The notes beneath the pieces were generated by a model, which was not told the origin of the DNA, searched no databases, and worked only from the letters and a program-made list of their open reading frames with translations. Positions 32,244-33,253 of a stretch of DNA of 37,789 nucleotides are shown in pieces. The DNA is from Chloroflexota bacterium (GTDB taxonomy: Bacteria; Chloroflexota; UBA6077; FW602-bin22): positions 1 to 37,789 of the forward strand of contig VGOZ01000027.1 in assembly GCA_016875715.1 (NCBI GenBank). The letters are read 5' to 3'. Within the stretch, counting starts at the first letter, position 1, and every line of letters starts with the position of its first letter. The position numbers and the translations under genes were made by a program.

Positions 32244-32423
32244 TTGGGCGGCATCGACCCGATCTATCTGGTCGTCGTGCCCGCCATTCCTGCGATCGCG
32301 TTCCGTCCGAGCCGACTGCACCGCGTGCGGGCCGAACTCGACAGAGGGCGTGCGGCATGGTGGTCTGCCGTGCGCGAGGCGGAAGGACTGTCTGCCGACT
32401 CACCGGAGGAAGTGCAGCGATGA
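32244..32423 (+). CDS. 59-aa protein, TTG start, co-translated with the rhodanese
   Basis: The TTG at 32244 has GGAGGG 10 nt upstream and a good promoter before it. The product begins with a short hydrophobic segment (IDPIYLVVVPAIPAIAF) and then an amphipathic, charged region (RLHRVRAELDRGRAAWW). It may be a single-pass membrane or membrane-associated peptide. The stop TGA overlaps the rhodanese ATG (ATGA), so the pair is translationally coupled. I know no family; a role next to the sulfurtransferase is inference. Confidence 0.6.
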   Translation: MGGIDPIYLVVVPAIPAIAFRPSRLHRVRAELDRGRAAWWSAVREAEGLSADSPEEVQR

Positions 32424-33253
32424 CCGCGGCGGAGTACGCCCGACCCGAGATCCTCGTCGATACGGCTTGGCTCGCCGCGCAGCTCGACGATCCGTCGGTG
32501 CGCGTCGTCGATGCGGACTATCCGCAGGCATACGGCAGGGCGCATATTCCCGGCGCGGTCGGACACCTCGACGCGAACATCTATCTCAAGTCAGAAGACG
32601 GCGCGACCCTGATGATGGGTCCCGACCAGTTCGCGCAGACGATGGTGCGTATGGGGATCGGGAACGACACGACCGTAGTCGTGTACGACAGCCACACGAG
32701 CCTCTATGCGGCCCGCTTCTGGTGGATGCTCAAGGTTCACGGCCACCGCGATGCGCGCATTCTCAACGGCGGTTGGCACAAATGGCTGGCCGAGAGCAGG
32801 CCGGTGACGATGGCCCGGGCGACGCCGCGGACGACGACCTATCAGCCGGAGTTCGTCGACTCGCTGCACACCAGTTGCGATCTCCTGCGCGGGGTGATCG
32901 GTCGATCCGATAGCGTGATCGTCGACGTGCGGAACATAGCCGAGTACACCGGTCAGAACGATCGGGGGAACAAACGCCGGGGACATGTGCCCGGTGCGAT
33001 CCATCTCGAGTGGCTGGAGTTCATGACGTCCGACGACAACCGTGTGGTTCGGCCTGCCGCCGAACTCCGCGCGATGCTGGAAAGTCGCGGGATCACCCGA
33101 GACAAGAACGTCCACGTCTATTGACAGGGCGGCATCCGTGCGGCGCACGGAACTTTCATTCTGACGCTTCTTGGGTACGATCGCGTGTGCAACTACGATG
33201 GGTCCATGCGCGAATGGGCGAATCGGGGTGATACGCCGCTCGTCGTGCCGTAG
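32420..33253 (+). CDS. Selenocysteine-containing rhodanese (thiosulfate/3-mercaptopyruvate sulfurtransferase type)
   Basis: A 277-aa tandem-rhodanese protein if the TGA at 33122-33124 is read as Sec235. The N-terminal inactive domain contains VRVVDADYPQAYGRAHIPGAV and the ARFWWMLKVHGH / NGGWHKW segments. The C-terminal active domain has VIVDVRNIAEYTG and RRGHVPGAIHLEW. The active-site loop reads HVY-U-QGGIRAAH, where homologues have C-Q-G-G-I-R. Translation continues with a normal rhodanese ending (FILTLLGYDRV, YDGSMREWAN) to TAG at 33251. Termination at the TGA would remove the catalytic residue and the last 43 residues. A hairpin 10-26 nt after the UGA fits a SECIS. The ATG at 32420 has GGAGGAAG upstream. 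Confidence 0.88.
33135..33151 (+). promoter_or_regulatory. Predicted bacterial SECIS element, selenocysteine rhodanese
   Basis: Perfect 7-bp stem TCCGTGC / GCACGGA with apical loop GGC at 33142-33144. The loop begins 17 nt after the UGA, the same offset as in the other selenoprotein gene. Confidence 0.7.

Follow-up and report, generated by a model that had tools for sequence, protein, structure and literature searches.

The rhodanese gene examined here very probably codes for an SseA/TST-type sulfurtransferase with tandem domains, in which selenocysteine (Sec) takes the place of the catalytic cysteine, with the in-frame UGA decoded by SelB and a SECIS element. The case is built on homology to known rhodaneses, the position of the TGA, a conserved SECIS hairpin, the Sec machinery of the host, the conservation of the codon across lineages, and the replacement of Sec by Cys in some of them. 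The gene lies in a stretch of 37,789 nucleotides from a Chloroflexota bacterium; "the window" denotes this whole stretch. Its features are as follows.

32405 to 32409, plus strand: Shine-Dalgarno-like GGAGG, 5' of the ATG at 32420 (sequence).
32420 to 33253, plus strand: Sec rhodanese (tandem-domain, SseA-type sulfurtransferase), predicted Sec at residue 235 (sequence, Pfam, structure alignment).
32420 to 32806, boundary approximate, plus strand: N-terminal rhodanese domain of the catalytically dead type (Pfam, conservation, model).
32876 to 33242, boundary approximate, plus strand: C-terminal catalytic rhodanese domain (Pfam, alignment, conservation, model).
33122 to 33124, plus strand: UGA codon, read as Sec at the catalytic position (U-Q-G-G-I-R; alignment, homologous loci).
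33135 to 33151, plus strand: putative SECIS hairpin with a 7-bp stem, UCCGUGC/GCACGGA (33135-33141 with 33145-33151), and the loop GGC (33142-33144) (conservation).

The open reading frame starts with the ATG at 32420, ends with the TAG at 33251-33253, and comprises 277 residues if the TGA is taken as Sec. No other stop lies within the rhodanese frame, and 3' of the TGA the frame is homologous to known rhodaneses up to the C-terminus (...YDGSMREWANRGDTPLV), just as a preliminary description of this DNA had read it. The same description had placed the TGA at the catalytic position. Indeed, in an alignment with its best relatives of known structure (PDB 1uar and 3hzu), residue 235 falls on their catalytic Cys, in a loop of the form C-x4-R. 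Pfam family PF00581 matches both halves of the protein (3.5e-36), and the protein thus has what defines the tandem-domain rhodaneses (COG2897, SseA/TST), namely two domains, the second with a six-residue C-x4-R loop. An AlphaFold2 model based on an alignment of 37 Sec homologues (pLDDT 96.2, pTM 0.93) predicts a normal rhodanese fold, and its top Foldseek matches in the PDB were 1uar, 1e0c, and 3hzu (TM about 0.9). Invariant among 38 Sec homologues are R99, W102, D169, R171, E175, Y234, Sec itself, Q236, G238, R240, A241, H243, D260, and S262. In the N-terminal domain, Tyr89-Asp90, located near the site that matches the Cys of the active domain, is nearly invariant, in line with what is expected of the dead domain of tandem rhodaneses.

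Closer inspection of the mRNA 3' of the UGA revealed the sequence CAGGGCGGCA-UCCGUGC-GGC-GCACGGA. The stem-loop expected just 3' of the UGA in a bacterial selenoprotein gene, with a small, G-bearing apical loop, is thus present; it starts 10 nt past the UGA, its loop opens with a G, and both spacing and loop G agree with the bacterial SECIS features described previously (PMC1088965). Compared to shuffled sequences, the fold of the 60 nt after the UGA was not significantly stable (z of −0.69), and therefore, the case for a SECIS element rests on conservation and not on stability. The 12-nt core CGTGCG[GT]CGCAC is found in 86 of the 88 Sec genes listed but in none of 10 Cys homologues of this phylum whose peptide fits the same pattern. 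At the third positions of the Arg, Ala, Ala/Ser, and His codons, the 88 Sec loci listed have T (87/88), G (88/88), G (88/88), and C (87/88), respectively, whereas the same bases occur in only 1, 2, 5, and 7 of the 10 Cys homologues. The third positions of the two codons 5' of the Ile codon of the stem are free in both sets; kinship makes the Sec sequences non-independent, but fixed and free codons are here compared within one set of sequences. Of the 88 Sec loci listed, 87 to 88 retain stem pairs 16-28 to 20-24, and the next pair outwards, 15-29, has undergone double changes from C-G to G-C (L178) and from C-G to A-U (L076). Judged from these alignments, synonymous sites frozen beside freely varying neighbors are the pattern that a conserved SECIS element leaves. 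The core (nt 16 to 27 counted from the T of the TGA, in all Sec loci) also encodes Arg-Ala-Ala-His beside the active site. RSSH stands at this place in many other SseA-type proteins, and Cys homologues with RAAH retained may have descended from Sec forms.

Absence of Sec machinery had been named beforehand as an observation that would speak against Sec. The host assembly (G000; 3.4 Mb, 94% complete, 5.5% contamination) contains selA (530 bits), selB (303 bits, above cut-off), selD (385 bits), and a tRNA-Sec with the anticodon UCA (73 bits). Hence, as expected of a bacterial selenoprotein, the host has SelA, SelB, SelD, and tRNA-Sec, and an in-frame UGA is aligned with the Cys of homologues. 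The selD gene of the host (L014, G000:C1:2679-3605) also codes for a selenoprotein, its in-frame TGA lying at GAG-U-ACK. SelB scored above cut-off in 306 of 400 genomes of the phylum, and its bare presence is therefore weak evidence; it was also above cut-off in 37 of the 40 named Sec-rhodanese genomes tested, and SelB-level matches were found in all 9 Sec-rhodanese genomes from within the phylum. This phylum is very probably Chloroflexota, as one of its genomes, G325, shares its SelB hit down to the coordinates with G402, a Dehalococcoidia MAG from Baikal.

The TGA is not a peculiarity of this contig. It is found at the same codon in G001 (same family, 70% identity; the contig stops about 50 nt past the start of the TGA), in G004 (same order), and in G136 (same phylum, 45% identity). 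When 84,980 species genomes were scanned with a pattern of the UGA motif that left the hairpin unconstrained at third codon positions, at least 118 stretches matched, and 79 of the 80 loci among the matches listed are rhodanese genes with a protein conserved after the TGA; the remaining one (L068, Mucilaginibacter) is a chance match. The preliminary description had taken Sec rhodaneses to be rare, a view that does not hold with at least 79 genuine loci in a single scan. Together with L028, L029, L178, the window gene, and five loci from the 400 genomes of the phylum, at least 88 Sec loci were obtained, although L188 (G325, one of these five) probably comes from the same genome as L060, which would leave one distinct genome fewer. 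Among the Sec loci listed, most belong to Dehalococcoidia and SAR202 Chloroflexota, including the cultivated SAR202 strain Candidatus Lucifugimonas marina JH1073 (L108; on SAR202 in culture, PMC10444878); others are from Binatota/Binatia, one Gemmatimonadetes MAG, one Tectomicrobia, and one 'Desulfurellaceae' bin. In one locus (L123; KatS3mg131, BPKO01000001.1), the upstream frame is broken 54 codons before the TGA by a frameshift or an assembly error. Taken by their sequences, the Sec rhodaneses form a large family spread through uncultured Chloroflexota.

When 86 proteins were placed in a maximum-likelihood tree (quick search, L123 left out), 49 of 50 Sec sequences fell into one well-supported group (SH-aLRT of 97), and five Cys sequences lie inside this Sec clade, in two lineages. 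Four of the five genomes with nested Cys sequences (G115, G206, G157, and G227) gave SelB matches at the level of EF-Tu or none at all; the difference from the Sec genomes of the phylum has a one-sided Fisher p of about 0.005, calculated by hand with kinship ignored, and the four genomes stem from just two lineages. Conversely, a Sec sequence from the order of the window genome (L178 787-852, G004) is placed within a Cys group and has the identical SECIS core. A single clade for all Sec sequences was rejected by the AU test (p of 1e-50; 1e-7 without L178), which was run on the quick tree with groups defined after the tree had been viewed. The placement of the nested Cys lineages and of L178 thus suggests that Sec and Cys were swapped several times in the rhodanese family. 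That L178 has the identical core would be in keeping with Sec as the ancestral state and repeated losses; alternatively, Sec may have been regained or transferred.

In the window, the Sec rhodanese has a small TatA-like ORF alongside, and dnaJ, dnaK, and a MerR-type gene are convergent. The small ORF (L180, 32244-32423, plus strand) lies upstream and overlaps the rhodanese start via ATGA; its counterpart in G001 resembles TatA (MIGGGLFQPWHLIVILVLIVVFFGPSRLPRLGQSLGKSIRDFRSS...), the copy in the window has degenerated (FRPSRLHRV), with no Pfam family scoring above cut-off, and the ORF is absent from the other Sec loci compared. A conserved operon or neighbor was sought in 82 loci and none was found; the largest neighbor clusters are overlapping-frame shadows of the rhodanese itself, and the remainder are lineage specific. 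Therefore, the function has to be argued from the rhodanese family.

Sec rhodaneses have been predicted before, and the statement in the preliminary description that marine metagenome surveys had reported them was correct. A survey of the Sargasso Sea listed a selenoprotein rhodanese-related sulfurtransferase of COG2897 (SseA) with three sequences and a drawn SECIS (Zhang et al. 2005, PMC1088965), the GOS survey of 2008 a Sec rhodanese of cd01449 with eight (PMC2398784). COG2897 SseA is also listed as a Sec form in a review (PMC9312934), and a review of 2026 describes a "Rhodanese-like domain-containing protein form 4" with PF00581 and the motif UxxG (MCY3690685.1; PMC13188914). Both the survey sequences and form 4 resemble the window protein in belonging to the tandem-rhodanese/SseA family, in having Sec for Cys, and in a SECIS just 3' of the UGA. 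The window protein has the UxxG motif as UQGG and PF00581 twice, and on motif and tandem architecture, by likeness to the published descriptions (MCY3690685.1, AACY01016424), we file it with this predicted family. Whereas the survey sequences are environmental fragments, the window gene comes from a genome with the full Sec machinery and is one of at least 88 loci with a near-invariant SECIS core. Among characterized structures, the rhodanese of Thermus thermophilus (1uar) and SseA of Mycobacterium tuberculosis (3hzu) share fold, domain order, and catalytic position with the window protein at 35 to 38% identity in the structural alignment, but have Cys in a CRIAER or CRIGER loop instead of U-QGG-IR. 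The 3-mercaptopyruvate sulfurtransferase SseA of Escherichia coli (1urh; NCBIfam NF008557) is homologous over residues 11 to 275, although the window protein falls outside this equivalog (134 bits against a cut-off of 250). Other Sec rhodaneses (COG0607 forms with UxxS, UxxG, or CxU; rhodanese_LYCAU, NF041203; TsoB) likewise combine the rhodanese fold with Sec but differ in family assignment, motif, or fusion; NF041203 gave just 31.9 bits against a cut-off of 115. No NCBIfam model accepts the window protein above cut-off (the best is NF008557), and therefore, automatic annotation probably truncates Sec rhodaneses at the UGA, with loss of the catalytic end. In the open-licence literature, we found no biochemical work in which a Sec rhodanese was made or assayed, no paper naming a Sec-containing rhodanese in those words, and none on SAR202 selenoproteins; nor did the literature searched mention how broadly they occur in Chloroflexota, that their SECIS core is frozen, or that Cys replacement goes with a lack of SelB.

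Could the TGA be a nonsense mutation in a dying rhodanese gene, or an assembly error for TGC or TGT? The window genome holds two more rhodaneses with Cys (42% and 40% identical to the Sec copy), so that loss of the Sec copy might be tolerable. However, the identical TGA occurs in at least 88 homologous loci of independent genomes with a conserved downstream protein, far more often than chance would allow, and neither a sequencing error nor a lone pseudogene can account for it; the synonymous sites of the hairpin are conserved, the frame has no further stop, and a TGA shared among genera, classes, and phyla refutes both variants of this idea, which we regard as extremely improbable. The chances of a variant genetic code in which UGA is a regular sense codon are smaller still and practically nil: in-frame UGAs in two conserved genes, the rhodanese and selD, would be in line with it, but both sit at known Sec/Cys sites, tRNA-Sec(UCA) is present along with SelA, SelB, and SelD, and TGA terminates 11 of the 22 long ORFs within the window. 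Since UGA normally terminates translation in the rest of the window, simple recoding of the genome does not apply. The reading of the UGA as Sec made in the preliminary description is thus upheld by the Sec machinery, the TGA conserved across phyla, the near-invariant SECIS, and Cys homologues that lack the core.

Two further explanations accept Sec but assign it another role. The UGA might serve mainly as a selenium-responsive switch that, at low selenium, gives a product without the catalytic loop, with selection acting on regulation and not on Sec catalysis. Any bacterial UGA-Sec codon competes with termination, and the Cys paralogues in G000 could supply basal activity; yet it is precisely the catalytic residue that Sec replaces, conservation of the downstream domain is strong (with R240, H243, D260, and S262 invariant around Sec), and lineages devoid of SelB have Cys instead. 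This points to catalysis and makes a mere switch very unlikely. Alternatively, the protein may carry selenium and not sulfur, Sec235 taking up Se(0) and handing it to SelD for selenophosphate synthesis. Rhodaneses are able to carry selenium in vitro, and the host has a complete Sec pathway and a Sec-type SelD. Still, there is no conserved neighbor and hence no selD linkage in the loci examined, such a protein is absent from most selenium users, and Cys homologues persist in genomes without SelB; we consider this role unlikely, if less so than the switch.

For the preferred reading, a Sec sulfurtransferase, a catalytic cycle can be drawn by analogy with rhodanese chemistry. SelB would bind the hairpin, which starts 10 nt 3' of the UGA, and bring Sec-tRNA to codon 235, so that the catalytic nucleophile would be a selenolate. 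With thiosulfate, 3-mercaptopyruvate, or a persulfide as donor of sulfane sulfur, the selenolate may be converted to a selenopersulfide (Enz-Se-S−), held by the six-residue loop and Arg240, from which the sulfur would be passed to an acceptor thiol or another nucleophile. Donor, acceptor, and a kinetic benefit of Sec are all suggested by the same analogy, by which Sec may also alter the persulfide chemistry.

Sec rhodaneses, predicted since 2005, are widespread in Chloroflexota, including a cultivated SAR202 strain. As a bolder proposal, which we think rather doubtful in its entirety, the Sec rhodanese might be an ancient, standard enzyme of Dehalococcoidia-type Chloroflexota, with a near-frozen SECIS that fixes the Arg-Ala-Ala-His portion of the active-site peptide, and might serve a dedicated persulfide- or selenium-transfer step that is not covered by the Cys rhodaneses of the same cells. 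In any case, the Cys paralogues and the lineages in which Sec was swapped for Cys make the benefit of selenium in a sulfurtransferase directly testable.
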